From a virus, in the IMG/VR virus record IMGVR_UViG_3300034791_000510, positions 1-28,577 of that record: a DNA stretch of 28,577 bases; one strand, given 5' to 3'. The first letter of the stretch is position 1, and each line of letters starts with the position of its first letter. A model generated the notes under the pieces. It did not search any database. It had not been told where the DNA came from and worked only from the letters and a program-made list of their open reading frames with translations. The translations under genes were made by a program, and so were the position numbers. Positions 3,201 to 28,483 of this stretch are shown here, piece by piece.

Positions 3201-6200
3201 TCAGCTACAGAATCTAATGTTACTAATACAGATTTACCAGCTGAGTTACCGCCATTAAAGAAATAGATCTTACTATTCTTAAATACTTCTGAAGTATTAT
3301 CAGTTAACTGTAATCTTAATACGTTTCTAAGCTCATACGAGAGCTCGTTATCTCCCCCAATAGTTACCCAGTCATTTGCATTATCGTTCGGTACGGCAAT
3401 CCCTGATTGCATTAGCCTATATCCAAGTACATCGTTCTTAATATAAAGATGATCCGCTCCATCGTATGTTAATGCTGTAAACCCATTATCTTTAGAGTTT
3501 ATAGATTTTGTAAGAGCAGCTGCAATTTCAGCATTAGTTCCATTTGAAGAAAATGCTGTTGTGTTAAAGTGTCCTGCTAATAGAGCATCTGACCCAAAGA
3601 ACATATTATTTGAAAGATCGTAAGGTATTTGTGTATAATCAATTCTAGCTAATGTTGTATTAGAACCAGACGTTGGAGATATAGAAGGTTTTAACGGTCT
3701 TAATGTGCATTTATTTTCGTAGAATATAATGTCATCACCATCCGCTTTCCAGTAAATGTTATCATCATTTACAAGTAATTCTAATGAATCAACAGTTTCT
3801 TGAACAGTATTTTTTAGTTCAAATGGAAATGTATCGTTACCGTTAGTTTCTACAAGAGTAAGTCCTAATATAAATTCATCTCCAGGGGTAAACCTTGTAA
3901 AATTAATTCTATAATCCTGTTCTTTAGAAGGGAATATTGCTATCCTATCGTTATTAGCAGGAGTTCCATTAATTGTAAGTTTAACAAAATCACTACCAGG
4001 AGCATCATGTATAATAGTATCAACAGATCTACCAACATTTGCCAGCTTAATTTCAGCAGGTATTTTATTAGAAGAATCTTCAACATATACTTCTAATTTT
4101 GAAGTATCATAGAATGCTGGAGATATCTTATAGAAGTTATCAGAAATATGTGCATACCCTAATGTCGGAGTAGATGTTATTAATTGCACCGGAGGTATTG
4201 CCGATGATATATCATCATTAATATATGAATTTAAAGTTTTAAACTTAATAAGCCCATTGTTAGATGATTCTAAAGATCCATATCCTGAATCAATATCATT
4301 TACATATAATCCGAAATATCTATTCACCGCGTAATCTTCAGTACTGTCATCATCAAATAAGAACTCTAAGTTAATAAGGTTCGCACATGCTAATTTGTTT
4401 CTTTCAAATCCTCCAGTAATTAAATCATTTTCGTTAATAATAGTTTGATCTTGTCTTACAAAATCATCAAATAAGTATTCACCTTTGTTTGTAAATCCAC
4501 CCTGTGTTAAATCAATACCATTAAAGTTTGTTCTTTCATTTTCACTAAAGTTTACATTAATTGGATTGCTTGGAAATAACTCGGACTTAACATGGTTTCT
4601 AATATAGGTACCAATGTTAGACTCTCTAGTTAAATCAAACGTTTTTATTAATTCACTATTTTTTAGAATCTCACCCATGTTATTAAAGTTACTTTGAGTA
4701 TCAAAGTCTAAAACAGCAGCAGGATCGCTAACCCTAAATATTACAAAATTATTAGGTATATTTTTATCTAGCCAAATAGGAGCTAACATTCTAAAATCTT
4801 CATCGTGTAATTTAGAATAATTATATGTAGTTCCGTAATGGTAGTCTTCTTCAATTTGTTTTTCAAAAGACTCCTGAACTGTAAGCTCTGAGAATCTAGA
4901 TTTAACATTGTATATTAGATCGGATGGTGTTTTATTAGCATTAAAAAACTTAGCTAAATCATAAGCCCATTTGCCATCCTTGTTAACAACCCATTTTTTA
5001 TATTCAACAGCTGCTAACTCTTTACTAGCATCAATAGACTCAATATACATATTGTCAAGGCTATTAACTACTAATTTAGCATTTGTAGATAGTTTTGGGT
5101 TTGTTCTTAATAAAGGCTTAGATATATTATCTAATTCGTAATTCTTTTCTAAGTTAAAGTTAGGAATAGATCTATTAATAATCTCTGCATCGTCAACTCC
5201 ATCTAAAATAAATTCTGTAAAGTTTTGTGTATCTAACAAACAACTTGTACAATCATCTCTATGTTCTATTACTGCTCCACTTGTAAACCCTAATTCAACT
5301 GGGTTTATTTCAACAACTCTAATATCATTACCATATTCTGGCTTAGATAATAAAATGTTAACAGCATCATCATAATTAACTGCAAATATTTTATGTTGAA
5401 GGGTAACACATTCTAACATGCTATCACCTCCTATGTTTATTGCAACGCCTCCATTCTCATCTGGCTCTATCTCATGTATTAATTTTTTAATATATGATGT
5501 TGAGTTTGTAGCAAATGTATGCAATCCATCTGTTACATATAAAGTCCAATATGGTTGGCCTGCCTCTACTTTAGCAGCACATGAATAAAATGCATAGAAT
5601 ACATTTACTCTAGACTGTAATGATTGTAGTTCTACATCTATTGCACAGGCGTCTCCCTCTAATCCAAGGCAATACGTTGGATTGCCTGTAGGTTTATTAA
5701 ATTGTGTATTACAATCTCCTAATGTATATTCTTGTAAATTGCCGTTGGCATCGTAAGTATCTCTTCTTGCATACGAAAGATCACCAGCTGGATCAATCAT
5801 TAGCCACGAGTATGTGAAATTAGCGTTTTCCGCACTTAAATAACCACTGTCATTTTCATTATCCCATATCGCAAATCGCCCGGGGCTACTAGGCGTATAA
5901 TTTCCTACTTGATCTGTTAAAGCTCCGGCGTTAGTATCAACTGCAATAAATACAGTATTATCCCATAGTCCATCATAATTAACTTCACTGGCGCTAGCCT
6001 CTGTAGTGTATATTAATATTTGATTTTGAACTACATATTTTAAAGCACTTTGATGTGTTGACAAATCAGCATAAAGGAGTCCATCACTTGGGGTGCTTCC
6101 AATTAGTCGCAGATCAAGTCTAATCCACAGGTCAGCCATGGTAAGTCCATCCACGCCCGCGAGACATGCAGCATCTACTGATAATCTATTGTCTTGGCTA

Positions 6201-9200
6201 TAATAAGCCTTAATACTAAATGTTACATATTCTATTGGCTCTGGGCATAAAAACACCTTTACCGGAGCATCCGGATCTAATAAATTATCTGCCCATCTAC
6301 CAGTACCATCATCACCGTCGGTTAAGAATTCATAATATATGAATCGCCCATCGTTATCTTTTCTAGTACCATCATTATAGAAACCTGGCGAGACACATAA
6401 AGATGCCGGAGCATAATATCCGTCGCCATTTCTATATTCCGGTAGGTTTGCATAATATTGACTAGTAAATAATTGACCACCAGCAGCAACCACATCAGCT
6501 AATGTAGCATTAGCATTATAGCCACTTGCGTTAGGATCAATAGTATTAATTACATTTTGATAAACAGTAGTCTGACTAACCGTGTATTCTAATTCTTCAG
6601 CACATATTTCATCAAGATTACTAGAGTAATTAATTTCAATCGGGAATGCATTATCTAAACTAGTTTCACAATCAACAACTTGTATAATTGCTCCGTCAGC
6701 AGCTAATTTTGCAGCTCTAATTATTACATCACCAGAAATATCTTGTTGGATTGAAACCCAGGGGTTAGAATCCGTTGTGTTTATGTCCGGGTTTTGCTTA
6801 ACCTCATCAGGACTTAATATATTAGAGGTGTATAATTTATCACCTGCACTTAAACCTGTAATATTTGTAGCTTCACTTGCTACTAAGTAAATATCATCAG
6901 GTCTTAAATCATCACATGCTAGTGCAGCAGTTGGTCTAAAATCATTAGATGCTGTTACGCCGCTGATATACGAGACTCCTGTTACACTTATTGTTACTAC
7001 ATAACTATCGCTGCCTTGAAATTGATCCGAGACTGTAATAGTATATACCTCATTTGCGTTCTGCCCAGGGTCAAGCGGCCATGCATCTGTGTTATATGTC
7101 CATACACCAGTAGTTGAATTTATATTAAGAGTACCTTGTTGTGTTTGAGTCCAACCAGAATCGACGCTAACTGAAGTCCATGCTGCAGTCCATGTTAATG
7201 TATCACCTACATCTCCATCACTTGCTGTGATGTTTAAGCTCTCAGAATTATATGAATCATATTGGTTGTTACTTACTCCTATGGTACTTTGATTGGTATT
7301 GCCGTTAATTGCAATAATAGGGTTAGTATTAGAAGCCGCAGTCATTGTAATAGTAATGGAATGCTGAGACGATTTTAACGGTTGAGCATCGTCATCTTCT
7401 GCTTTATACCAGAATGTGTCTACCTTATCCGGTTGCCCTGGAGTCATTGTATTACCAGTATATGTATAAGTTAATATACCATTACTAGCATATACGAATT
7501 CACCATGTGTCCCTGATTTAACGTCATCTACAACAAATAGAGTATCAGTAGTTCCGCCCGAATTTGACCAATAGTATGTTAAATCATTAGTTCCAGTATT
7601 AGTATCTGAAACATTAAGGCCTATGTTAAATAATGTTGTATCGTACTGTTGAGCTGAAGAAATACTTCCAATAATATCACTAGCGATTGGCGCTGTATTA
7701 CCAGGAGGGTTTATTGTTAATGTAACAGTATACTCTGGTGATAGGTTGCTAACAGAACTCCCATCGTCTAGTTTATATTTAAAACTAGCTGTTTGTATCG
7801 CAGAAGCACCAAGACTCTGTGCTGGTGTTAGTTGGATTGTCAATGGAGTAGCCGTCCCGTTTAATGTATCAGGAGCACTAGTAATACTAGCATTAGAGCT
7901 ACCCGATGTATCTACAAGTGTGCTTACATTATTTCCTAGCGTCAAACCACTAACATCTGTGATTATTACCTGTAATGTACTATTAGTAGCATCGTCTGGG
8001 TCGTTAACATTTGAGCCAGCCCATCCTCCTGTAGCGACATCATTAAAATCAATATTGTTTGCAGTTGGTGTTCCGCTATATGTTATGCTTTTAGTTAAAT
8101 CAGATCCAATTGGAGCCTGGTTTCCAGCAGATTGTGTTATTGTAAAAGTTTGAGATGTTTTAGTATTATCCTCTGGATGTACTAATGTTACATCAACTGA
8201 TCTTGCAGTGCTTCCTGAGTATGCACTACATGTGATATTAAGAGCACCTCCATTAACCGTAAAAGCATTTGGAACTACGTTTACCCAATCTACAGAAGAA
8301 CTGTACGTAATATCATTATCGACATCAAACGCCGTTGCATTACCGGTAATAGTTACCGCTTTCGATTGAATCGGTGTGCCCGATGATCCAAATGATAATG
8401 TTGCATTATCGGATATTGAAATACTTGCAGCACCTAAACCACCAGTTACTGAAACATCACAATTAATTGTACCAGAATTATTATACCCTGCAGGTATGTT
8501 AACAGTTAGTGTATAAATAAAGGTGCCATCTAAATATAAATCATTATTAGAGTTGGTAATGCTATTAAAAGTTGCAGCACCGTCAGTTGAAAAGTCGGCA
8601 GCTGTAATCTGATCACCAATAACACCATTAGTAATTGATAATGTCTCTGTGTCACATGTAAAGTCTGGTAATGTTGCATTAGTTGCAAGAGTAGTTGAAG
8701 TTGTCGTCGCAGCATGATTAGCGCCACCTGTTACAGTACAAGAAATATCTACATCTCCAGAATTTGAATAATTAGCCGTAGGTGGCGATATTCCAGTGAT
8801 TGTATAAGTTGTAGTTCCATCACCATTGCCGTCGTAAGTAAAAACGGAAGGTGTTATTACCCAATCCGTATTACTAGGCGGTACATTCCATGTTATAGCC
8901 GAGTTCGTGATAGTCTCACCCTCATTCCCATTATTAATTCCCGGGACTGCTTCAGCGCAATCATACAATGTTGGCGCTTGTGTCGTTGTAGTCGTCGGAT
9001 CAAGACTACGTGCTAGCGGCCATTCATTCCGGTTTAAATCTGCTAATGTTATATCATTATTTAAACTATCTTGAGCATCTAATGTAACTCTAAAAATTTC
9101 TGAGCCTGCAAGTCCAGGGTCGCCTTCAGCTACCTGATCGTCTATTAGGGTAAATGTAAGTTCGCCCTCGTTACTTTGCATTGTAATAACCCCAGTTAAC

Positions 9201-9955
9201 GAGGTTAATGAAATATCGGCAGCATCAAAACCACTCCCGGAGGCATATCCAGATATTGTATATCCAACTTCAGTACCATCTGGTATGTTGGTACCTTTTA
9301 ATGTAAATGTTGGGAAGTATGTTAAATGGCCCTCAGTATAAGCTTGCACTGCATTACCGTGGTGTTCAAACTCATAGTAGTTCGCCACCGGGGCAAGTGT
9401 CGTTGTTGTAGTAACTGTAACGCTTTGAATTACACAGTTTATTGGTGAATCTCCAGAATTATTATACCCTGCTGGTATTGCAATGAATGCACCGTAAGTA
9501 CTATTTCCGAATGTATAATTTGTTGGAGCATAAGAAGTAATTGTAATTCCGGAATTTACAGTACCTGCTACCAGTTCACCATCTTCACCGCCTGGAATAG
9601 TAAGGCCTACATCAGTACAAGTAAACGTATCCATCCCGTTGTTTATTGTGCTTACAGCATCTGAACCTATCTGTAGAACATAAGGGTATGGATTTCCATG
9701 TGTAGAGGAATTACCTCCATCAAATATCCAATGATTGCCCTGCCCATTAAATGCAGTCGTAAGTCCGGGATCTGTAAACACATCTACTCCTGGGCCTGGT
9801 TGTCCCTGAGAAGGGCCTGGGCCTGAACCATTATCACTATAATATATAGTTTGAGGAGTTCCGGTGAAAGTGGGATTAGTTTGAATCTCAGCTTTTGCCA
9901 ACGCCAGAGTAGCGTAACTAGGTGTTCTTAAATTTACTGTTATAGTAGTAGCCAT
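290..9955 (-). CDS. Giant 3221-aa virion protein with Calx-beta-, BACON- and cadherin-like domains
   Basis: One uninterrupted 3221-aa frame, about a third of the window. Residues 1-100 are a Gly/Pro-containing head. Three related Ig-like modules ending in YNNSG...C or YSNSG...C motifs lie near 108-180, 330-412 and 431-506. A Calx-beta-like segment spans about 195-300 (GTEVGYTISGYASGSGFDAA, then EGELTFTLIDDQVAEGD). Thr-rich linkers sit at 181-187, 320-325 and 417-422. Residues 511-611 resemble a BACON domain: a Trp at 557 in SSVDWVNV, then an R-x-V-D-V-T-L strand, ending FTITQSAG. Three cadherin/VCBS-like domains follow (about 612-750, 751-878, 879-992), each opening with an N-x-x-P-I motif. 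A Cys-containing region runs from about 1000 to 1577, and a long Cys-poor part to 3221 has no recognised fold. It is probably a tail- or baseplate-attached adhesin binding host or matrix glycans. BACON domains are known from Bacteroidota enzymes and from crAssphage; function here is inferred. Start ATG has no Shine-Dalgarno. Confidence 0.8.
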   Translation of the reverse strand: MATTITVNLRTPSYATLALAKAEIQTNPTFTGTPQTIYYSDNGSGPGPSQGQPGPGVDVFTDPGLTTAFNGQGNHWIFDGGNSSTHGNPYPYVLQIGSDAVSTINNGMDTFTCTDVGLTIPGGEDGELVAGTVNSGITITSYAPTNYTFGNSTYGAFIAIPAGYNNSGDSPINCVIQSVTVTTTTTLAPVANYYEFEHHGNAVQAYTEGHLTYFPTFTLKGTNIPDGTEVGYTISGYASGSGFDAADISLTSLTGVITMQSNEGELTFTLIDDQVAEGDPGLAGSEIFRVTLDAQDSLNNDITLADLNRNEWPLARSLDPTTTTTQAPTLYDCAEAVPGINNGNEGETITNSAITWNVPPSNTDWVITPSVFTYDGNGDGTTTYTITGISPPTANYSNSGDVDISCTVTGGANHAATTTSTTLATNATLPDFTCDTETLSITNGVIGDQITAADFSTDGAATFNSITNSNNDLYLDGTFIYTLTVNIPAGYNNSGTINCDVSVTGGLGAASISISDNATLSFGSSGTPIQSKAVTITGNATAFDVDNDITYSSSVDWVNVVPNAFTVNGGALNITCSAYSGSTARSVDVTLVHPEDNTKTSQTFTITQSAGNQAPIGSDLTKSITYSGTPTANNIDFNDVATGGWAGSNVNDPDDATNSTLQVIITDVSGLTLGNNVSTLVDTSGSSNASITSAPDTLNGTATPLTIQLTPAQSLGASAIQTASFKYKLDDGSSVSNLSPEYTVTLTINPPGNTAPIASDIIGSISSAQQYDTTLFNIGLNVSDTNTGTNDLTYYWSNSGGTTDTLFVVDDVKSGTHGEFVYASNGILTYTYTGNTMTPGQPDKVDTFWYKAEDDDAQPLKSSQHSITITMTAASNTNPIIAINGNTNQSTIGVSNNQYDSYNSESLNITASDGDVGDTLTWTAAWTSVSVDSGWTQTQQGTLNINSTTGVWTYNTDAWPLDPGQNANEVYTITVSDQFQGSDSYVVTISVTGVSYISGVTASNDFRPTAALACDDLRPDDIYLVASEATNITGLSAGDKLYTSNILSPDEVKQNPDINTTDSNPWVSIQQDISGDVIIRAAKLAADGAIIQVVDCETSLDNAFPIEINYSSNLDEICAEELEYTVSQTTVYQNVINTIDPNASGYNANATLADVVAAGGQLFTSQYYANLPEYRNGDGYYAPASLCVSPGFYNDGTRKDNDGRFIYYEFLTDGDDGTGRWADNLLDPDAPVKVFLCPEPIEYVTFSIKAYYSQDNRLSVDAACLAGVDGLTMADLWIRLDLRLIGSTPSDGLLYADLSTHQSALKYVVQNQILIYTTEASASEVNYDGLWDNTVFIAVDTNAGALTDQVGNYTPSSPGRFAIWDNENDSGYLSAENANFTYSWLMIDPAGDLSYARRDTYDANGNLQEYTLGDCNTQFNKPTGNPTYCLGLEGDACAIDVELQSLQSRVNVFYAFYSCAAKVEAGQPYWTLYVTDGLHTFATNSTSYIKKLIHEIEPDENGGVAINIGGDSMLECVTLQHKIFAVNYDDAVNILLSKPEYGNDIRVVEINPVELGFTSGAVIEHRDDCTSCLLDTQNFTEFILDGVDDAEIINRSIPNFNLEKNYELDNISKPLLRTNPKLSTNAKLVVNSLDNMYIESIDASKELAAVEYKKWVVNKDGKWAYDLAKFFNANKTPSDLIYNVKSRFSELTVQESFEKQIEEDYHYGTTYNYSKLHDEDFRMLAPIWLDKNIPNNFVIFRVSDPAAVLDFDTQSNFNNMGEILKNSELIKTFDLTRESNIGTYIRNHVKSELFPSNPINVNFSENERTNFNGIDLTQGGFTNKGEYLFDDFVRQDQTIINENDLITGGFERNKLACANLINLEFLFDDDSTEDYAVNRYFGLYVNDIDSGYGSLESSNNGLIKFKTLNSYINDDISSAIPPVQLITSTPTLGYAHISDNFYKISPAFYDTSKLEVYVEDSSNKIPAEIKLANVGRSVDTIIHDAPGSDFVKLTINGTPANNDRIAIFPSKEQDYRINFTRFTPGDEFILGLTLVETNGNDTFPFELKNTVQETVDSLELLVNDDNIYWKADGDDIIFYENKCTLRPLKPSISPTSGSNTTLARIDYTQIPYDLSNNMFFGSDALLAGHFNTTAFSSNGTNAEIAAALTKSINSKDNGFTALTYDGADHLYIKNDVLGYRLMQSGIAVPNDNANDWVTIGGDNELSYELRNVLRLQLTDNTSEVFKNSKIYFFNGGNSAGKSVLVTLDSVADININDYLETSSQGVYNKVIDIVDDIERLPLQYKKLVLDKKNTIESGEVSVFADNLVTLGLFSAFDIHDMNFDFYDTSNSDLKELKYETAANINYEPELDNQSDIYPFGERENTDYLTTPASYFSGLTGVLEDEITDTFNEDFVESEYDRLKENYLKENSIRSRVVPSINKWVLKDTLTVREQPYYLNANEAFGRSNFSADLSVAGRDRLGMTHEWFYINNLPKHLKENGGTSTDPDYKLNESFSYLNFMEGFEMTPSMFKDINYDYFDRFFVTEGFETKGNNSYKTFVKTNRQKKYTLVSGGNDSAFADSIFKGLKVIFKSRKEFTSASPVDFVKSSEFNGYRFSTVLNVKTSQDSNGIEYEVIQNKKFKYVVFFISLNLDDLWADQTLTRKLLYELNHSLIWNNEEGTFKYSDIKVDGHLDLTGANFSDPTGDNYLVVNGLVHADGSLPQFLEQINKNEDDEYGNIIVNINTAFGLQKILLDISNVGGQAELILARPPQDITDGTEVPTALDNLPGYLQYNAEYVYKGGGINAYKYILEALGAQDMAAMLLRNPDNIKYSTIELDGTTALNKFIILLEDGIEIIKKAEINTEVDDDKPESFKLSSGNIGYNLGLTRTYYPFLIRHNGGYTVDTTPVVTFTDVYAHMKTNTLQNTSNIIELELEEQMYKHSLTSTEDIQLAKDYYKRYNRCGVAFNLGFIYDGGIHDSKWGYIKNHFYRKVNEFKSSGVIKLSASSDKPPLYPLIGEVAIDKKDVHVFKSSWDKNYYTRALSGDLTELVPGTFETKEERSYLASTIMKIKDSYTMLNFDVARVRTEEELDDILANSTNTTDVVQFEDKNRVVLDFYIDFTINKKLSADGVLDTITKYVLAANSADDKTTLKDDAQLYIGKNLVNVFGISQIKLYTQRLKGAGSHLESVDSVGDLDNNNYIYDQNFTFSSHEQKPLNFRLIYNKRLGYSYRIRPMVKITS

Positions 9956-18999: not shown

Positions 19000-19272
19000 T
19001 TATCTAGTTCGTTCGTCGTCTTTTTCTATCGTAAAGTTACCAAAATTCTTCAAGGATCTAACCTGGTCTAATAATGATAAAAAATAATCATTAACAAATA
19101 TAAGGAATTCTCTCATTGTTTGATTTCTTCTAATATGCGGAGACATTTGTTTATCAAGTAAGCCATTTTTCTTGTAATCATACCTAACATTAAGATTGAC
19201 ATCTTTTCTATGCTTGGTAATATTGTACAGCCTTTTACGTTTATATACTAATAGATCTTTAAATACTCCCAT
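19000..19272 (-). CDS. 90-aa basic protein between gp6 and the gp7-like gene, unknown
   Basis: A short gene whose ATG shares an adenine with the gp6 stop (TAATG), and whose own TAA lies one nucleotide before the next ATG. This tight double coupling strongly suggests it is real and is made in step with the wedge proteins. The protein is very basic at the N-terminus (FKDLLVYKRKRLYNITKHRK), becomes helical toward the end (NQTMREFLIFVNDYFLSLLD) and ends acidic then basic (EKDDERTR). No family is recognised. It might be a small wedge component or an assembly chaperone. T4 gp53 is a small wedge protein but no motif here confirms that. Confidence 0.6.
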   Translation of the reverse strand: MGVFKDLLVYKRKRLYNITKHRKDVNLNVRYDYKKNGLLDKQMSPHIRRNQTMREFLIFVNDYFLSLLDQVRSLKNFGNFTIEKDDERTR

Positions 19273-21101
19273 TACTTCATAGATTTTCTATTTCCAGCCT
19301 GCACTCTAGTGTAAATAGTTCTAGGTACTGGTGTTGCGTCAAAGTTAATTGAAAGTGCTGCTTCAGCATTCATTAATGCATCGTCAATAATTTCATCACC
19401 ATCTCTATCTTGCCAACCTCCTCTGAAAACTGCAACTTCTTCTTTCTCCATAATAATATCACCCCATTCATCTAGTCCGGCTTCAGTATATGGAATAACA
19501 GTTGTTTCATCAACATCCACAGTTTTAACTTCTTCTATTTGTTTAAAGAAAATATATTTTTGTTTACCATTACCTATCTCTTCTAAAACTACAGGCTCTT
19601 GAGGCACTACAGTCACAGTCTTAGACAAATAATATCCTAACCTTCTTGCAGTCTCTTCTGTTTCAGAAATAAATCTTATATTAACAGCATCAATACCTTC
19701 AATTGTTTCTAATATGTAAACAATATCCGACTTAGGTAACTTATCTCTTCTTGTAACGTTAAGCATATAATCACTTACTGCCTTTCTAACATTAACAAAT
19801 ATTTCTTGTTTTGTATGTCCTTCGAAAAACCTGATGTTAATATCCATACTGTATTTTCTAATCTTAGGTTTTACGAAAACAACTTCAGTTGTAACCATTT
19901 GCTGACCACTATCCTGAATCACTTGTGACATCTTGTCATACTCATTTTGATCAAAGAACATCTCGTTTATTGGAATTGAGAAGTAATCTTGATCTGCTAA
20001 TAACTTTCTTTTAGCATCTGGAATTGCAAAAATGTAAATTACATTATCATCATCTAAATACTGATCCTCAGTCGTGTTGTAAGCATCCACATACGAGAAC
20101 ATTCCATATCTTGATAGGAAATACTCATAGTTATCCGGTGTCGCTAGAACGTATGATTTAGACGCCAGGGGTGCCATTAACTTAGTAAACTCAACTGACT
20201 CTTTATCAGCTCCCATTTTAGGAGACGATGTTACTTTCATTTCTAAATACTCATTTAAATCAAACGAGTCGCCGTTTGAATCATCTCCTTCTGCGTCCCA
20301 TTTAAAAATAATATCCTGTGCATCATCTAAATTACCTATAAACCCAGAATGCTTAATGTATTCTACCTCTATTAAATTACCAGAACTTGGTATTGCACCA
20401 AAGTTACCAGTTCCAAAATAAACATCAAGACCACCAGAAATTCCAGTCTTAATAATATACCCTTTTTCTTGGTTTAATAAGTCATACATTGAGTCATGCT
20501 TCGTCCACTTTTCTCCGTTAACTGAAACGCTAACTTTAGAATGATCTGTTAAAGAACTTGTTTGTACATTATATGATTGCATTGATTCTCCAGTTCCAGT
20601 AAAGGTTTGAGATTCAAATTTACCTTGAACTATTGCACATTTTATAGCATACTTGTTTGCTTTTTCTAGTCTAAACTTATCTTGTGAAGTTAATAGAGTA
20701 TAAGTTAATCCATTTAATTCACATTTTAATTCTGATCTTGCATCAATATTTAATCCAGTCCCTGCAATTTTACCAAGATCTGATCCTACTGCCCATCTAA
20801 ATTCAATCTCTCCGGTTGCTGCAAAGCCTCTGGTTGCATCATGTCCTGTTAGTCTTGATATACCATAGATAGATTCTGGTTGTTGAGCTGTGTATATGTT
20901 TTGTTCTACTAAAGAGTCTTCTATATAGAACATAACCAATTCACCTAACTCAGCCATAACAGAAATAATCTGAGCAAATGGAGATGCTTCAGTAAATAGA
21001 GTGTTTGCACGTTTGTAAACCCTCGAGATATATGTTCGAGCATCTGTCTTAATTTGATTAGACGATGTTCTTAGTGCGCTTAAAAATTTTAGTTCTGCCA
21101 T
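19272..21101 (-). CDS. gp6: Baseplate wedge protein gp6 (baseplate J family)
   Basis: 609 aa, close to T4 gp6 (660 aa), a core wedge protein that forms the inner baseplate ring with gp25 and gp53. The N-terminal helical domain includes ASPFAQIISVMAELGELVMF and then PESIYGISRLTGHDATRG (about residues 39-92), the characteristic start of gp6/J-type wedge proteins. Mid-protein beta domains follow. The C-terminal J-like region is near 405-485, with VFVKPKIRKYSMDINIRF and, after a helical block, ETIEGIDAVNIRFISE. gp25 lies directly upstream with 7 nt between, the usual gp25-gp6 order of contractile systems. The stop overlaps the next gene by one base. A late, structural role in the tail baseplate is established for the family; no departures from the family pattern were noticed. 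Confidence 0.88.
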   Translation of the reverse strand: MAELKFLSALRTSSNQIKTDARTYISRVYKRANTLFTEASPFAQIISVMAELGELVMFYIEDSLVEQNIYTAQQPESIYGISRLTGHDATRGFAATGEIEFRWAVGSDLGKIAGTGLNIDARSELKCELNGLTYTLLTSQDKFRLEKANKYAIKCAIVQGKFESQTFTGTGESMQSYNVQTSSLTDHSKVSVSVNGEKWTKHDSMYDLLNQEKGYIIKTGISGGLDVYFGTGNFGAIPSSGNLIEVEYIKHSGFIGNLDDAQDIIFKWDAEGDDSNGDSFDLNEYLEMKVTSSPKMGADKESVEFTKLMAPLASKSYVLATPDNYEYFLSRYGMFSYVDAYNTTEDQYLDDDNVIYIFAIPDAKRKLLADQDYFSIPINEMFFDQNEYDKMSQVIQDSGQQMVTTEVVFVKPKIRKYSMDINIRFFEGHTKQEIFVNVRKAVSDYMLNVTRRDKLPKSDIVYILETIEGIDAVNIRFISETEETARRLGYYLSKTVTVVPQEPVVLEEIGNGKQKYIFFKQIEEVKTVDVDETTVIPYTEAGLDEWGDIIMEKEEVAVFRGGWQDRDGDEIIDDALMNAEAALSINFDATPVPRTIYTRVQAGNRKSMK

Positions 21102-21108
21102 TAGTTAT

Positions 21109-21465
21109 TTATCTTAAATTTACTTTGATTGTATACTCGTTGTTAACAGTAATATCAATAAACGCCATATCTCTAACTTCACCTTTCACAAACTTAACGC
21201 TTACGGTAGTTTTGTACTTTGCTGATAGAGGTACGAAATTAGCCAGTTGGCTCTGTATTTCATTTTTAATTTGAAATTCATTTTGACCCAAACTGTATAC
21301 AACATCTTCTAAGTTACAACCAAATGATGGAGCACCTAAAACATCCCTCTTTCTTGTGAAAAGAACGGTTTCTATCTGAGCTAGTAATTGTTCAACTTCA
21401 CTTACGTTTTGAACAACTCCCGCCTGATAATTAGGGTCTCCTATGTATTTTATATAAAAATCCAT
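21109..21465 (-). CDS. gp25: Baseplate wedge protein gp25
   Basis: 118 aa, compared with 132 in T4. The family core is visible: a helix (VSEVEQLLAQIETVLFTRKR), the R-x-x-x-x-G-x-P-x-F-G signature at about 40-49, then the segment with LEDVVYSLGQNEFQIKNEIQ, and two C-terminal strands (TTVSVKFVKGEVRDMAFIDI). gp25 clamps the wedge by binding gp6 and gp53 and connects the baseplate to the sheath. It is named lysozyme-like in databases, but the family's demonstrated role is structural, so no enzyme activity is claimed. The start ATG sits inside an A/T-rich ATATATAAATG context without a Shine-Dalgarno sequence. It is followed 7 nt later by gp6, which supports the call. Confidence 0.92.
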   Translation of the reverse strand: MDFYIKYIGDPNYQAGVVQNVSEVEQLLAQIETVLFTRKRDVLGAPSFGCNLEDVVYSLGQNEFQIKNEIQSQLANFVPLSAKYKTTVSVKFVKGEVRDMAFIDITVNNEYTIKVNLR

Positions 21466-21485: not shown

Positions 21486-22328
21486 TTATGAGTGGAACAT
21501 CCAGTCCACTCCTTCGTCTCCTTTTATCTCTTCAATAATTGACTCTAATTCGGTGTCTCCCATGTCTTTTATTGCGTCGTAGTCGAATTCTACATTACCA
21601 GGTAATGCAAATTTAAAAATACCAAGCTTAGCGCCTAGTGATTGCTTAATCTTAGCAGAACAATATCTAAAAAAGATTTCGTCGTCAAATAATGCACAAT
21701 CCGGAATCGTCTCGTACACATCAAGTATTAGATCTCCCTTCGGAGTATCTCCCATTATCTTTAACTCTCCAGTAAGTCTAGAGTATTGAAAAGAAATTGG
21801 GTTTTCTAAAATCTGTCTAGCCATATCTGCTAAAGACTGATTTAGTACATAATATTCTAATTCTTCTGCAGATTCTGCTGCTCCAGATCCGTCGTACATT
21901 CCTCTGAATAACATCTTTTCTATTGCAAAGTCTCCACCACTTTGAAATCTAACATCTAATCCACCGCCAGTTGAATTCCAACCAGATGCAATATCGTGCA
22001 CTCCAAATACTGAGAATACAGATCCAGATCCATCCGCACTTGCTTTAGGTAAATTTAATGTTCTATTTGCTTTAAAATAATCAGTTTTAAATATTGCGTT
22101 TGGTATATGGTAATAATTTTCTAGAACAGAATCTTCATAACTCTTGTAGAACCATTTCTTAGCTCTCGTAATTATATTGACTATTTCTCTCTGTGGTAAA
22201 TTTACTGGTACCATACATGCCCCAGTTAGCTCATCACCAAGCTCTTGTAAAAATGCGTTTAAACAACTATCGCTGAAACTTCTTCCAACGTTTAGATTAT
22301 TTTCATTACCGCTTCTAATTTCACTCAT
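21486..22328 (-). CDS. Probable neck protein, gp13-like
   Basis: 280 aa, similar in size to T4 gp13 (309 aa), one of the neck proteins that joins the filled head to the tail. Three features fit that family: an N-terminal helical block (LPQREIVNIITRAKKWFYKS); a central segment where T4-like neck proteins read F-x-Y-x-R-x-x-x-x-L-x-I, seen here as FQYSRLTGELKI; and a C-terminal block FFRYCSAKIKQSLGAKLGIF ending in a LPGNVEFDYDAIKDMGDTEL helix. A Gly/Ser-rich loop lies near residues 118-130. It sits between the amidoligase-like gene (one nucleotide upstream) and gp25, so head-tail joining and baseplate genes are mixed in one operon. The identification is by motif pattern and could not be tested by search; gp14 or another neck protein is the main alternative. 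Confidence 0.6.
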   Translation of the reverse strand: MSEIRSGNENNLNVGRSFSDSCLNAFLQELGDELTGACMVPVNLPQREIVNIITRAKKWFYKSYEDSVLENYYHIPNAIFKTDYFKANRTLNLPKASADGSGSVFSVFGVHDIASGWNSTGGGLDVRFQSGGDFAIEKMLFRGMYDGSGAAESAEELEYYVLNQSLADMARQILENPISFQYSRLTGELKIMGDTPKGDLILDVYETIPDCALFDDEIFFRYCSAKIKQSLGAKLGIFKFALPGNVEFDYDAIKDMGDTELESIIEEIKGDEGVDWMFHS

Positions 22329-22329
22329 T

Positions 22330-23643
22330 TTATGATTTTATTTTTTTACTTACCACAACTTCAGTTTCATCAGAGAATCTAGCATTAGGTCCGACCCCGC
22401 CTTCTCTAAATATTCCACCTTCCATTTTACCTTTAAAAATACCATCTCGTCCGAAAACAAAAGAGTTTTTAACAGTTACACTACCATGTACAAAACAAGA
22501 TTCTACTTTAGAATCCATAATTTGGCACCCTTTATATATTTGCGATCTTAATATTTGTGCTCCGTTTACTTCACCACCATATATTTCACTATTCTCTATG
22601 TTACCTGATAGTTTACAATCAATAAATTCAAAACCATTTAACAAATATGATGTTTTAAACTTACCGTCTTTAACTTGGACTGTTGAATAGTCTGAGTCAT
22701 AGTTAATAATACCTTCTTCCATTGTGCCGTTTGATAACAATTCTAATACTTTATGTTTAAATCTATCCCATTGTACTCCAATTATGGCAGGATGATCTTG
22801 TAAATCCACTAGTATATCTATCTTAGGCCAATGTTTATTTACGGCGGTATAGTCCTTTAACATCTTCATTAAAGGTTCATTCTTTCTTAAAATACGTTGT
22901 AGCTCTATTTTATTAGCAGGACTAAACCTTGGATCTCTACAAGATCTCCAGATAGCTAAGATAAACCTATCCGCTAATGTTAAAATATCTTCTTGTCTCT
23001 TTTCGTAGTCTTTACCACCAATATATCTAAACTCTAAATAATTACTTTGAGCTTTTTCGAAATTAATACCATAGTATTTAGTATTCGCAAACGTAAAGTT
23101 ATCCTTATTGATTAAATCAGAGTTATAGTAGAATGCTTCATGTTTAGGCATAATCCATTTAACAGATTTTGCATAAGTAGAATCTTTTCTATCAGGAAAA
23201 TACTTATATACGCGATCTTCATCAAACTCAAGTATGAACTTCAACACATCCATGTGCTGAATCATATTAGGATCTTCTAAATATTCTGGTTTAAATGACA
23301 TGTTAAGGTGGATCGACGCTCGATCAGATGTGTACCCGTTTTCACGGATCCACGCTAACATTTTCACAATAACTAGCCTAGCGTTTCTGTAAGGCATTGG
23401 ACCTGTTACCAGTTCAATTAAACCTTTACCACCTGACATATCAGGTTCCATCTTAAATACCTTATCACATGGTACGAAATCTGAATGAGCCTTTTCTTCT
23501 AATTGAATCTTTCTGTCTAAGAGTTTAGATACAGACTTTACAGTCTCGTCCATCTCTAAATTAGAATAGAACTCAAATTCGATGCCCATTTGGCTGGCAG
23601 CTAGTACTTCTTGCCTTATTGAATTACTTTTTAACTTTTGCAT
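22330..23643 (-). CDS. Amidoligase-like (ATP-dependent carboxylate-amine ligase) with C-terminal beta-helix repeats
   Basis: Residues 1-300 match the pattern of the Amidoligase_2 family (glutamine-synthetase/GCS-type fold, peptide-bond-forming ligases that use ATP): GIEFEF at 20-25 with Glu22 and Glu24, the FKMEPDMS...GLIELVTGPMPY block at 63-85 with Glu77, IHLNMSF at 111-117 with His112, and EFRYIGG at 204-210 with Arg206. In the family these acidic, His and Arg positions bind metal, ATP and substrate. Residues about 336-412 change to a repeated pattern with a new short strand every 5-6 residues (e.g. GFEFIDCKLSGNIENSEIYG), suggesting a right-handed beta-helix or pentapeptide-like domain. 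The enzyme may ligate an amino compound or peptide to a virion or host protein; the substrate is unknown. The gene sits between the S1-domain protein and the neck gene in a structural operon. The role is inferred; the motifs look intact. Confidence 0.72.
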   Translation of the reverse strand: MQKLKSNSIRQEVLAASQMGIEFEFYSNLEMDETVKSVSKLLDRKIQLEEKAHSDFVPCDKVFKMEPDMSGGKGLIELVTGPMPYRNARLVIVKMLAWIRENGYTSDRASIHLNMSFKPEYLEDPNMIQHMDVLKFILEFDEDRVYKYFPDRKDSTYAKSVKWIMPKHEAFYYNSDLINKDNFTFANTKYYGINFEKAQSNYLEFRYIGGKDYEKRQEDILTLADRFILAIWRSCRDPRFSPANKIELQRILRKNEPLMKMLKDYTAVNKHWPKIDILVDLQDHPAIIGVQWDRFKHKVLELLSNGTMEEGIINYDSDYSTVQVKDGKFKTSYLLNGFEFIDCKLSGNIENSEIYGGEVNGAQILRSQIYKGCQIMDSKVESCFVHGSVTVKNSFVFGRDGIFKGKMEGGIFREGGVGPNARFSDETEVVVSKKIKS

Positions 23644-23696: not shown

Positions 23697-24995
23697 TTAT
23701 TGGGGTAGTTTAAGAAACACCTTCATTGAGTCTTCATCGATCCTAGTAATTTGTACTTCGATCTCGTCCCCAACTCTATAGGTATCTAATATATCTCCCG
23801 GCAATTCACTAACATGTAGTAATCCTGTTACACCATCTTCGATGTTTACAAATACTCCATATTCTTTTTTGGTCTTGATTTTAGCCTTAACAATAGATGG
23901 TATTGAGTATCTAGTAGATATATTAATCCAAGGATTTACCGAAGTATTTTCTTTTTGAGTTAACGTAATCTTATTGTTAGTAATAATATCTTTTACAAAG
24001 AAGTTAATTGGTTCGCCTGGTTTAATATCCCTAGCTTTAAATTTAGCTGAAGTCTCTTCGTCAAGCTCATTTGTATGAATCATACCTGTTAAACACTTAT
24101 TGAATTCAACAAATACTCCGTATTTTGCAGTACCTGTTACTAAACCATGTTTAGGTTCATCAAGAGTTTCTTTTAATTCATTAATTGAACTTGGTATTAG
24201 TGCTTGTAAATATTTTCTATGTGAAACTACTAACGTGCCTCGATCTGGTGAGAAACTCACTGGAACTACATATAATTCTTCTCCAACGATAGAACTAAAG
24301 TCTGACAATTTATTAATACCTGCAAGTGATCCTGGCATAAAGCAATCTACACCTTGTACTTTTACAATATAACCACCATTTTCAATCATGTTATTCACAG
24401 TACCGATCCAAGCAGTATTGCCTTCGTCGATTGCATCTCTAAGATCCATGAATGTTTTATGCTTCACTCCACCAGTAATAGTACCAGTTAAAAGGCCTTT
24501 AGTTTCCGTAATTAAAACTGCAGTTTCTGCTCCGGGTAGAAGTTGTCTAACCTCATCAGATTCCTTGCTGGATTTAACATAAACCATTTCTCTATAGTTA
24601 ATGTCTATTGTAATCCATTCTTCAGTCACTCCATGTATTGTACCATCATGAATTTCACCTATAAACAATTCAGGTTTAATATTCTGACTAGCACCTTTCA
24701 TGAGGTCGTATAACTCTTGAGCATAAGGCTCGCGAGAGAATACTTGATCTCCGTCTTGGGTTTTAATATGTGGATTTGGTTTTCGGGTTGCAGTTACGCA
24801 AGTTGCTTCAAAAGCGTCCCATTTGAATTCTCCATCTTCGTCATAAAATTCTGAATAATCATCACCATTATCTTCTTTGGTTTCTTTAGTGATTTCTGTT
24901 GGAGTTTGAACTGCTGCCTGAGTTTCTGGAGCTAGCTCTACTGTGTTTGCCTCTGGGGCTGAAGAATTAATTCTTCTTCTTTTTTTGTCTGACAT
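23697..24995 (-). CDS. Ribosomal protein S1-like protein with four S1 (OB-fold) domains
   Basis: 432 aa. A basic start (MSDKKRRRIN) is followed by a Thr/Glu-rich and then acidic linker to about residue 60, and four S1 domains at about 109-165, 192-262, 282-348 and 364-431. The last two are canonical, with G-x-V-x-x-x-x-x-Y-G-V-F-V cores (KYGVFVEF at 291-298, EYGVFVNI at 378-385) and the GMIHTNEL and GLLHVSEL strands that face RNA. Bacterial S1 usually has four to six such domains and helps the small ribosomal subunit bind mRNA. A phage copy could guide phage mRNAs to host ribosomes, act in RNA turnover, or bind RNA in another way. Phage-encoded ribosomal-protein homologues are known, but S1 in a tail operon is uncommon to my knowledge. 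The leader is A-rich (AAAAAATAAATAATG) with no Shine-Dalgarno sequence. Confidence 0.85.
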   Translation of the reverse strand: MSDKKRRRINSSAPEANTVELAPETQAAVQTPTEITKETKEDNGDDYSEFYDEDGEFKWDAFEATCVTATRKPNPHIKTQDGDQVFSREPYAQELYDLMKGASQNIKPELFIGEIHDGTIHGVTEEWITIDINYREMVYVKSSKESDEVRQLLPGAETAVLITETKGLLTGTITGGVKHKTFMDLRDAIDEGNTAWIGTVNNMIENGGYIVKVQGVDCFMPGSLAGINKLSDFSSIVGEELYVVPVSFSPDRGTLVVSHRKYLQALIPSSINELKETLDEPKHGLVTGTAKYGVFVEFNKCLTGMIHTNELDEETSAKFKARDIKPGEPINFFVKDIITNNKITLTQKENTSVNPWINISTRYSIPSIVKAKIKTKKEYGVFVNIEDGVTGLLHVSELPGDILDTYRVGDEIEVQITRIDEDSMKVFLKLPQ

Positions 24996-25491: not shown

Positions 25492-25890
25492 ATGAGTAAA
25501 TTTAAAGTAAGCGAAGTTAAAAGTAATGGGATTGGTGGCGAAGGCTATCAAGCTGTTCTTATACACAAAGACGCAATAGTTGAAATTTGTCAAGAAGTTA
25601 GAGATTTATTAGGTCTAGATAAGATCTTTGAATTAATCACTGAAGATAGTACAAATGATTATCACCGAGGCCATCGATTTGAAGAGGTTGAAAATAATGC
25701 ATATAGACTTATCAGTGCACTTGCAAACCATTGTTCTACTTACCTTGACAGCGATGAGTTGATAGAGATGCACATACCAGCCGTTTTAAAGACCTTAACT
25801 ACTGAAGATAAGGTAACTATCGTGGTTGATGCATGTCGTGACTGTGCGGGTGCAGACCATTGGTACGCGTTCGAAAAAGATTGGGGTTAA
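25492..25890 (+). CDS. 132-aa acidic protein, unknown, second gene of the plus-strand island
   Basis: The ATG lies 11 nt after the second promoter core. The product begins MSKFKVSEVKSNGIGGEGYQ and is acidic overall, with predicted helices (IVEICQEVRDLLGLDKIFEL) and a late segment VVDACRDCAGADHWYAFEKD that holds a C-R-D-C pair. His and Asp residues around YHRGHRFEEVENN are present, but no metal-site or enzyme family can be assigned. There is no signal peptide or membrane helix. It ends tail-to-tail with the 625-aa minus-strand gene: the four bases TTAA at 25887-25890 supply the stop codon on both strands, so transcripts from the two directions overlap there. Confidence 0.72.
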   Translation: MSKFKVSEVKSNGIGGEGYQAVLIHKDAIVEICQEVRDLLGLDKIFELITEDSTNDYHRGHRFEEVENNAYRLISALANHCSTYLDSDELIEMHIPAVLKTLTTEDKVTIVVDACRDCAGADHWYAFEKDWG

Positions 25891-27764
25891 AATACAATTG
25901 GTACAAAACCAACCATCGGAATTGGTCCGACTGGCGTCGGTATTCCACCAAGATACAATAGCTTAAATTCTAATAAGTGTAATGCATAAGCCCCGGCAAC
26001 TGCAGCTGATGTTGCAAGCGCGGGTGGCTGAAGTGCAGGTATTACACTAAACGTCTTTCCTGTAGCCCATGCCTTTCTTAAATTGTTAGCAAGTCTATTT
26101 GCACTTCCATAATATATTGGAATATAAATTCCTGTTAAAGGTGCCGGAATCATTGCAGGCAGTGCAGATGGAGTTGGACCAAATGGTTTAACAATACAAG
26201 CATACCAATATGCTATTGTTACTTTTGCCATCATTTCATACGGATCTCCCTCAAATGATTTACCACCAGGAGTAGTTCCACTTCCTTCAAACGGGTGGTC
26301 GATTACCGCTGCATCTTCTTCGCAACCAGATGCTGCGTTTTTAGCACACACTGCTTTATGAAATTCAAACTTAAATAGAGTACCTTCTGGTTTAGGGTCG
26401 ATTTTAAAATATTCTGCTTGAGCATCCTCTTTTGTAGAGGCTGCTCTTAATTTTGCTTCCGGTACTTTAATCCAATGTTGTTTCCACTCAAAATCTTCAT
26501 ATTTGTTTTTAACCCAAGAAACAGTCTTTGTATACTTGACTAGAAAACTAGACCCACCATACCCATCATTCCCAAATAAACATGTTTTATTATCCGTGAC
26601 ATACGGAGTTCCTGTTCTCTTATTAGGATAATATGTAAAGTGCGCCACTACATTAGACTTTAGAATTTTAGGCCTTTGGCTATCTTGTTCAAAGTCATAA
26701 GCCACTTGTAATTTATATTGATTAATGGGACAGAATTCCGGAGTAACATCTACGCCTCGCGAATTCTGTAGAGTAGGATATTCAACTTCTTTTGTTGCAG
26801 TCCTATAAATCCTCTTCTTAATTACAGAATTTATTCCTAACTGACTTCCATCACCTCCTCTTTCAGGGTGCATTGCTAAAATAGAATCCTTTACAAACTT
26901 TGAAACATTGTCACATAAGCTTCCAGAATTATATCCGGCAGAAACGATACCATTTCGAGCCTTACCGCTAAGACTTAAATAATTATTCCCATAATTCTCT
27001 TTACCTAGGTGACATGCCCAGACAAAATAATCCCATCTAGATGCTTGTGTTTGCATAAACTTATACCCCATTAAAATTCTAGTAGCAAAAATAACCTCTA
27101 ATTCTTGTTGAGTCTCTGTACCTACTAGGCATGGAAATTGATAAAACTTAAATTTACGTAAATTATATCCAGTCTTATTCTCATCAGCGCTTGTGAATTT
27201 ATTAAATGCTATATCATTCTCTTTTTGCATTTCAGCCATTTCTTCTGGAGTTGGAGGTGCTGCAACATCTGGACAAAAATCAGCATAGGCAGGATGAGAC
27301 TCTTTGCCCATTTGAGTTAAATTACCATCTTCGTCATATTGGTCCATCATTGGAATATCGCCCTCTTTTAATAATCGTTCAAAGCAAATACCATAACCTT
27401 CTTTTAAAATTAGTTCTGCTAAACCATTATTAGTATGCATAGCACCAAACGGTGTCATTGCATTATTCTTTACTGCATCAATATAATGCTGTGCTACTGC
27501 TTTACCAAAATCATAACGCCCGCTTAATGGCGCGACATTAATTGCATTTATCATTGCAGCAGGATTCGTAGTTAATTGTGCATTAAGGGGATTTCCAGGG
27601 GTGATTGATTTAATTAAATCTCCACCTGGGGGAAAGATAGGCACTTGATCAGTTCCAACCGATGGTAGTGGATATGAAAGTATCGCACCTCCAGGTTTAG
27701 TAAACTGCTGGCTCGTTATTGTATCTGCCAGATCCGGAATAAATTTGGGCCACATTGCAGGCAT
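25887..27764 (-). CDS. 625-aa probable structural protein next to the spike, unknown
   Basis: A full frame 2 nt after the stop of the gp5-like gene. The N-terminus is Pro/Thr-rich (MPAMWPKFIPDLADTITSQQ). A helical part around residues 85-135 contains AVAQHYIDAVKNNAMTPFGA and a Glu/Gly-rich run. The middle has aromatic, Cys- and His-containing segments (SRWDYFVWACHLGKENYGNN, then LSLSGKARNGIVSAGYNSGS). The last ~110 residues are hydrophobic and Ala/Pro-rich (VIPALQPPALATSAAVAGAY to PVGPIPMVGFVPIVF). A segment near the end, YWYACIVKPFG, loosely echoes the earlier YIDAVKNNAMTPFG, hinting at an internal duplication. The position beside the hub suggests a tail-tip or hub-associated protein, possibly with a peptidoglycan-related role, but no catalytic signature was found. 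The C-terminal hydrophobic stretch could be membrane-active or buried in an oligomer. Confidence 0.6.
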   Translation of the reverse strand: MPAMWPKFIPDLADTITSQQFTKPGGAILSYPLPSVGTDQVPIFPPGGDLIKSITPGNPLNAQLTTNPAAMINAINVAPLSGRYDFGKAVAQHYIDAVKNNAMTPFGAMHTNNGLAELILKEGYGICFERLLKEGDIPMMDQYDEDGNLTQMGKESHPAYADFCPDVAAPPTPEEMAEMQKENDIAFNKFTSADENKTGYNLRKFKFYQFPCLVGTETQQELEVIFATRILMGYKFMQTQASRWDYFVWACHLGKENYGNNYLSLSGKARNGIVSAGYNSGSLCDNVSKFVKDSILAMHPERGGDGSQLGINSVIKKRIYRTATKEVEYPTLQNSRGVDVTPEFCPINQYKLQVAYDFEQDSQRPKILKSNVVAHFTYYPNKRTGTPYVTDNKTCLFGNDGYGGSSFLVKYTKTVSWVKNKYEDFEWKQHWIKVPEAKLRAASTKEDAQAEYFKIDPKPEGTLFKFEFHKAVCAKNAASGCEEDAAVIDHPFEGSGTTPGGKSFEGDPYEMMAKVTIAYWYACIVKPFGPTPSALPAMIPAPLTGIYIPIYYGSANRLANNLRKAWATGKTFSVIPALQPPALATSAAVAGAYALHLLEFKLLYLGGIPTPVGPIPMVGFVPIVF

Positions 27765-27766
27765 AA

Positions 27767-28483
27767 CTACTTATTCTTTTGTTGATATTTAATATGTGTG
27801 CTTGATAATTTTGCAACTGTTGCTGGGGTAGGAGGCATTGGAGGACCTGATGGTCCAACTCCTGTTGGATGGATATGTGCATTGTAATCATCTAATAGTG
27901 CTTGTAACCAATCTTGTAGGGATTGACCTCTTACCGCTGGCTCAGTTTCATCTGCTCCACCTTCTCCTGTATTAGATACGAATATATCTCCGCAATCCAT
28001 AAAGATCTTTGCGTCTGTAGAAATCTTAATAAAACCTTCTTCATCTATTTGAATCATAGGTCTTTCTTTTTTACCCTCTCCTCTTGTAATGACCAAGCCA
28101 TCTTCTGGTGAGTGGTAAATTCTTAGGTTACGTTCTGCATCGTATACTAAACTAATCACATCATGTGGTGCGTCAGACGCTTCTAAGATGTCTCCTTTTA
28201 GATCATCATTCTGATCTACTTGAAACCAATATTCTGGGTGATAAATGTTACCATTGTCAAAACGAACTGCAACAATATCTCCAACTCTAGGAACTGCGTG
28301 TGCACCGACTTGTGCTCTATTCATAGGAGTTGCCCATGGAATAGCGTCATCTGTTAATTTATCAAATTTACCGTAAACTTTTACGCGTACTCTACCTTGT
28401 AGCAGTGGATCTTCATTAATAACTACTTCTCCGAGCCAATGTGAGTCTCGTAAATTATCAGCAAAAAGTTCATTATTATTCAT
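27767..28483 (-). CDS. gp5: gp5-like baseplate hub/spike protein, OB-fold domain without lysozyme
   Basis: 238 aa. Residues about 13-92 match the OB-fold of T4 gp5 and VgrG/gpV proteins: WLGEVVINEDPLLQGRVRVK, then PWATPMNRAQVGAHAVPRVG and VAVRFDNGNIYHPEYWFQ. Residues about 95-165 are short beta segments (NLRIYHSPEDGLVITRGEG) that may extend the needle. The end carries the motif HIHPTGVGPSGPPMPP, common at the C-terminus of spike proteins of this class, preceded by the helix SLQDWLQALLDDYNA. T4 gp5 also holds a lysozyme domain and a long beta-helix; here no lysozyme region exists, and the protein is much shorter than T4 gp5 (575 aa). The upstream gene overlaps the start by 8 nt. The spike pierces the outer membrane when the sheath contracts. 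Confidence 0.85.
   Translation of the reverse strand: MNNNELFADNLRDSHWLGEVVINEDPLLQGRVRVKVYGKFDKLTDDAIPWATPMNRAQVGAHAVPRVGDIVAVRFDNGNIYHPEYWFQVDQNDDLKGDILEASDAPHDVISLVYDAERNLRIYHSPEDGLVITRGEGKKERPMIQIDEEGFIKISTDAKIFMDCGDIFVSNTGEGGADETEPAVRGQSLQDWLQALLDDYNAHIHPTGVGPSGPPMPPTPATVAKLSSTHIKYQQKNK

Follow-up and report, generated by a model that had tools for sequence, protein, structure and literature searches.

Enzymes of the glutamine synthetase (GS)/gamma-glutamylcysteine synthetase (GCS) fold can act on proteins, the Pup ligase PafA being an example. In phages, amidoligases have been reported in modules together with a glutamine amidotransferase (GATase), ATP-grasp, GGCT and COOH-NH2 ligase partners, and modification of the cell wall has been proposed for these modules (PMC3890496, PMC10580990, PMC11945000). 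In UFV-P2 the amidoligase module is found among the early genes.

The ligase analysed here is encoded in a 28,577-nucleotide stretch of viral DNA (IMG/VR record IMGVR_UViG_3300034791_000510, positions 1 to 28,577), hereafter called the window. It represents a predicted enzyme, well conserved, strongly selected and hitherto unannotated, that large phages encode among their virion genes.

Gene organization of the window

The ligase gene and its assigned neighbours lie on a single strand, and the order hub-S1-ligase-neck-gp25-gp6 is kept in close relatives. The genes are as follows.

27767..28483, (-) strand: gp5-like hub/spike OB-domain protein, start of the conserved block (Phage_base_V 1.8e-8; PHROG 430)
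23697..24995, (-) strand: ribosomal-protein-S1 homologue, 432 aa, 53 nt upstream of the ligase (NCBIfam rpsA 1.8e-37; Pfam S1)
22330..23643, (-) strand: amidoligase-solenoid protein, whole ORF, 437 aa, ATG start (full-length relatives, structural model, dN/dS)
21486..22328, (-) strand: neck/head-tail adaptor, 280 aa, 1 nt downstream of the ligase (PHROG 211, E 7.5e-10)
21109..21465, (-) strand: gp25-like baseplate wedge protein (Pfam GPW_gp25 0.0013, below cut-off; PHROG 43; synteny)
19272..21101, (-) strand: gp6/J-like baseplate wedge protein (PHROG 219, E 3.7e-30; Baseplate_J weak)

The original prediction, an amidoligase-like enzyme fused to a beta-helix within a virion-protein operon, named the S1-domain and neck genes correctly as the flanking genes. 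A Pup-like tag gene beside the ligase was considered and rejected, the intervals of 53 nt (S1-ligase) and 1 nt (ligase-neck) leaving no room for one in the window. Between the hub and S1 genes lies a 625-aa ORF (25887-27764, (-)) for which Pfam, PHROGs and NCBIfam gave no match and which has 68 relatives in the fetched loci. Downstream of the baseplate genes lie a 3221-aa ORF (290-9955, (-)) and, upstream of it, ORFs of 1213 and 645 aa; none of these three had a relative at E 1e-4 in the fetched loci, most of which may end short, and they are possibly fast-evolving fibre or tail-tip proteins.

Sequence classification

Pfam Amidoligase_2 (PF12224) matched residues 18-130 of the window ligase with E 7e-4 and 19.9 bits, just under the curated cut-off of 22 bits. 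This cut-off was exceeded in 1 of 16 large phage records and most members of the ligase family gave no match, the family having been left unannotated because its score falls under the Pfam threshold. The relative from Agrobacterium phage Atu_ph07, AUZ94978, scored 30.2 bits to PF12224, above the cut-off, and was matched to the window ligase by tblastn (E 3e-5), which provides a homology bridge to Amidoligase_2. PHROG 33777 (unknown function) matched the window ligase at 2.8e-8, and a PDB sequence search with the ligase returned no relative. Since the score lies below the PF12224 cut-off, membership in Amidoligase_2 rests on fold and on the Atu_ph07 bridge: by score the ligase is not a member, and by its predicted fold it belongs with the GS-fold carboxylate-amine ligases. 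The identity proposed at the outset was thus borne out for the GS/GCS-like fold (described below) and not for the Pfam threshold.

Predicted fold and active-site residues

An AlphaFold2 model of the window ligase was built with 33 IMG/VR homologues (pLDDT 90.7, pTM 0.85). The top Foldseek matches in the PDB were bifunctional glutathione synthetase and glutamine synthetases, and alignment to GS 4bax with VIA-align gave Z 11.9 and rmsd 3.4 over 183 residues (model range 8-239). The model therefore has the catalytic fold of GS/GCS-fold ligases, at ~12% identity to these enzymes; a profile comparison with one single GS sequence gave no alignment and was uninformative. Conservation was counted over 198 unique sequences of the ligase family, and the equivalence of its motifs to the GS E-x-E, E, H and E-x-R elements was drawn from motif order.

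22927..23622, (-) strand: GS-like catalytic domain, residues 8-239 (VIA-align Z 11.9 to glutamine synthetase)
23569..23586, (-) strand: motif G20-x-E22-x-E24-x, proposed metal ligands, GS E-x-E equivalent (G20, E22 and E24 198/198)
23398..23418, (-) strand: motif IELVTGP with E77, proposed metal ligand (E77 198/198)
23296..23316, (-) strand: motif S-I-H112-L-N114-M-S116 (position 112 His 140, Gln 58; N114 141/198; S116 194/198)
23014..23037, (-) strand: motif L-E204-F-R206-Y-I-G-G, GS E-x-R equivalent (E204, R206, Y207 and G209 198/198)

All four ordered motifs that had been read from the sequence (GIEFEF, IELVTGP, IHLNMSF and EFRYIGG) are present. Invariant in the 198 sequences were E22, E24, D68, S70, E77, E142, Y157, K189, N194, E204, R206, Y207, G209, N314 and R413. 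Among the five residues originally listed as catalytic, E22, E24, E77 and R206 are thus fixed and H112 is not, and Glu204, equally invariant, was missing from that list. Judged from these residues the active site appears intact, in agreement with the expectation of an undecayed enzyme, and ATP-dependent amide formation would be expected from the fold family.

Position 112 is occupied by His or Gln only, Gln being characteristic of a large clade, and the tree needs three changes at this position. The 58 Gln-bearing sequences, the virion operon and the presence of a solenoid domain are the points in favour of a non-catalytic component of the virion (neck, collar or tail tip), in which the residues would be kept for binding or stability. 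This structural co-option is considered rather improbable, because the acidic/Arg site is unchanged down to ~30% identity and because position 112 changes to Gln only, in three tree changes, a pattern that fits a residue in contact with metal or phosphate.

C-terminal solenoid

The remainder of the protein carries a second domain, with the following features.

22369..22728, (-) strand: beta-solenoid, pentapeptide-like, residues ~306-425 (two models; Foldseek/VIA; weak Pentapeptide_4)
22396..22416, (-) strand: solenoid motif G410-G-I-F-R413-E-G (R413 198/198, G410 188, G415 187)

Modelled alone, the C-terminal domain was again a beta-solenoid (pLDDT 89.3), so that structure prediction recovered both the GS-like fold and the anticipated beta-helix. 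Its closest Foldseek matches were pentapeptide-repeat and synthetic beta-solenoid proteins (best E 2.4e-3), with VIA Z of ~8-10 against solenoids. Pfam Pentapeptide_4, which has a cut-off of 38 bits, gave no match in the window ligase and matched 21 of 33 family members weakly, relatives scoring 19.3 to 24.3 bits. Across the family, the G410-R413 motif takes the form of an aliphatic and an aromatic residue followed by the invariant Arg; from this motif and from its position the solenoid is a putative docking arm. The net charge across residues 301-437 is -3, and this near-neutral value gives no sign of DNA mimicry. No free-standing copy of the domain was found among the phage records searched, where the matches were megaphage homologues only.

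An extra match of the C-terminal domain, to a 1817-aa GGxF/W-repeat protein, was rejected as looking like repeat similarity. This protein, full of W/F-x-x-G-x-F repeats, is encoded at L352:6926-12379, on a phage contig with a related neck on which no ligase was found, and is possibly a large solenoid virion protein.

Family distribution and selection

Metagenomic phages of 462-735 kb encode full-length relatives of the ligase, and Atu_ph07 and Salicola phage SCTP-2 encode partial ones. Searches of IMG/VR with two seeds returned at least 483 and at least 326 stretches with a relative; the larger count is far beyond chance. The family occurs in phages, mostly large ones of up to 735 kb, and almost exclusively there: among 84,980 bacterial and archaeal species genomes of GTDB a single match was obtained, on a 5.9-kb contig that looks like phage because it also carries S1, neck and gp25 genes. 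A BFVD entry from an uncultured Caudovirales phage (A0A6J5PQ40, unannotated) was a full-length structural match (TM 0.89, 21% identity) and, as far as can be seen, is of the same family.

Median dN/dS among close relatives was 0.073 for the ligase, 0.082 for gp6, 0.092 for the neck, 0.161 for S1 and 0.164 for gp25. The ligase gene is under strong purifying selection and is not decaying.

In SCTP-2, gp125, a sequence relative of the ligase, and gp124 are adjacent genes (L043:13924-17684). BFVD A0A248SJ93 (647 aa, equal in length to gp124) matches the ligase fold, which suggests a tandem ligase pair, the accession being tied to gp124 by its length.

In Atu_ph07, AUZ94978 is two genes from the portal. 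From the published numbering, in which the portal is gp198 and the prohead core gp204, AUZ94978 corresponds to gp196, within CDS 170-215; this is one of three clusters to which most virion proteins detected by mass spectrometry belong (PMC6102473). The family is not described in the passages searched of a jumbo-phage survey (PMC7824862) and of the huge-phage paper (PMC7162821), no virion amidoligase was found in the literature searched for them, and within that literature the family is uncharacterised. The 'glutamine synthetase' AMG of the moraphage paper might be either a member of this family or a true GS.

Linkage to the neck gene

The neck protein was used as search seed in order to avoid selecting on the ligase. 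Of 80 neck loci, 79 had a ligase gene as the immediate upstream neighbour, in the same orientation, and at the sole exception the sequence ends 775 bases upstream; as the query necks were taken from ligase-bearing loci, the scan applies to relatives of those phages rather than to all phages. The placement in a virion operon is real and conserved. Gaps between ligase and neck did not exceed 20 nt in 105 of 110 loci and in 71 of 78. Ligase and neck distances correlated at 0.94 over 205 loci, a value that shows joint inheritance rather than contact, since phage relatedness alone gives much of it. The ligase is read as virion-linked because of the neck-seeded scan, the short gaps and the position of the Atu_ph07 relative within its virion cluster.

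The same neighbourhood bears on a cell-wall modifier that would alter peptidoglycan peptides, blocking superinfection or helping lysis, as proposed for amidoligases of the phiEco32/LUZ24 type. The families are related and modules of this kind are those reported in phages; however, no GATase, ATP-grasp, GGCT or COOH-NH2 ligase gene, such as the known modules carry, was present in the conserved S1-ligase-neck-gp25-gp6 order, the ligase lies in a virion operon rather than among early genes as in UFV-P2, and GGACT was found in 4 of 13 large phages, in all of them unlinked to the ligase. The COOH-NH2_lig search matched nowhere at all and shows nothing either way. A cell-wall role is accordingly held to be very improbable. 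One GGACT-like match (G002:C1:57068-57391, (-)) has one TGA and one TAA in frame and is a decayed gene or an assembly error.

Looser linkage in megaphages

Gene order is rearranged in megaphages, and in most of their loci the ligase either adjoins a block of hub/tail-tip clusters (3-1-2-8/9-5) or lies ~2-7 kb from the neck. In phages of 600-735 kb the neck is often unlinked, and the S1 gene (~360-410 aa) lies about 50 to >400 kb from the ligase. The linkage is not universal: in a second scan, seeded with megaphage necks, 17 of 80 loci had a ligase no more than 10 kb away, and of the 51 loci with full flanks 15 did. Among 15 large neck-bearing contigs from that scan, possibly incomplete, 12 had no ligase. 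The association is thus strong in two clades and looser elsewhere, where the gene is still mostly among virion genes.

These arrangements also bear on a host take-over enzyme, which would either modify a protein of the host, perhaps one of the translation apparatus and in concert with the adjacent S1 homologue, or be packaged and injected. A parallel would be the ATP-grasp enzyme RimK, which extends ribosomal protein S6 by additional residues. The window ligase has a genuine rpS1 homologue 53 nt upstream of it, in an order kept in more than 180 loci, and S1 proteins of huge phages have been proposed to redirect translation (PMC7162821). Loss of the S1 linkage in megaphages weakens such a host-directed role, as do the faster evolution of S1 (dN/dS 0.161 against 0.073 for the ligase) and the lack of a capsid-targeting-like N-terminus on the ligase, and it is regarded as unlikely.

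The megaphage ligase often has a DHH-type phosphoesterase-like neighbour (L045:16826-19102, L048:16811-18802 and ~43 further loci), assigned from weak Pfam/PHROG matches. Several of these proteins begin with a ...KY.QFINEE N-terminus that presumably resembles the T4 capsid-targeting sequence, and they could be packaged and injected; a capsid-targeting N-terminus looked for on the ligase was found on this neighbour instead.

Proposed function

The preferred reading, held tentatively and somewhat short of probable, is a carboxylate-amine ligase that acts in morphogenesis by covalent modification of a neck or tail protein of the virion, with the solenoid docking or oligomerizing. E22, E24, E77, His/Gln112 and E204/R206 would hold ATP and metal; a carboxylate would be activated by the ligase and coupled to an amine; and the solenoid, with its invariant R413/G-rich motif, would serve as docking or oligomerization arm. 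The ligase would be produced, presumably late, at the same time as the neck, baseplate and hub proteins, and its target during assembly would be one of them, a neck or tail-hub protein in the first place. The modification may be an added amino acid or peptide, or an isopeptide link that would reinforce the junction of head and tail in a very large particle. Modification of a virion protein, as raised in the original prediction, is suggested by the linkage, and crosslinking is one possibility among several amide-forming reactions. Against this reading stand the replacement of His112 by Gln throughout one clade, the unlinked S1 and often neck genes of 600-735 kb phages, the large neck-bearing contigs free of ligase, and the consideration that linkage could reflect shared expression time only.

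A more far-reaching form is rather doubtful: that huge phages use a dedicated protein ligase, docked to the virion by its solenoid, to tag or crosslink their own neck or tail, as an enzyme-made counterpart of the self-catalysed HK97 capsid crosslinks. If the substrate is indeed a virion protein, phage assembly would include an amide modification made by an enzyme, and a phage amidoligase would, within the literature searched, have a firm function for the first time. Because of the pairing with the neck, mass spectrometry of a few proteins would be a direct test.

Comparison with known systems

The window ligase has the motif order and GS-like fold in common with the putative amidoligases of phages and bacteria in Amidoligase_2, and differs from them in its fixed C-terminal solenoid and in being encoded in a virion operon, not in an early metabolic module. 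The predicted fold is likewise that of GS and gamma-glutamylcysteine synthetase, with the solenoid as an addition at the C-terminus, and the order E-x-E, E, H (Gln in some members), E-x-R appears to correspond to theirs. Unlike the PafA system, it has no adjacent gene for a small tag protein. The solenoid itself is similar in shape to the pentapeptide-repeat/beta-solenoid proteins Qnr, MfpA and AlbG (Foldseek from E 2.4e-3 upward), but falls below the Pfam pentapeptide cut-offs and is near-neutral. The peptidoglycan-modification module of LUZ24/phiEco32-like phages contains an amidoligase of a related family, whereas the ligase described here sits with neck and baseplate genes.
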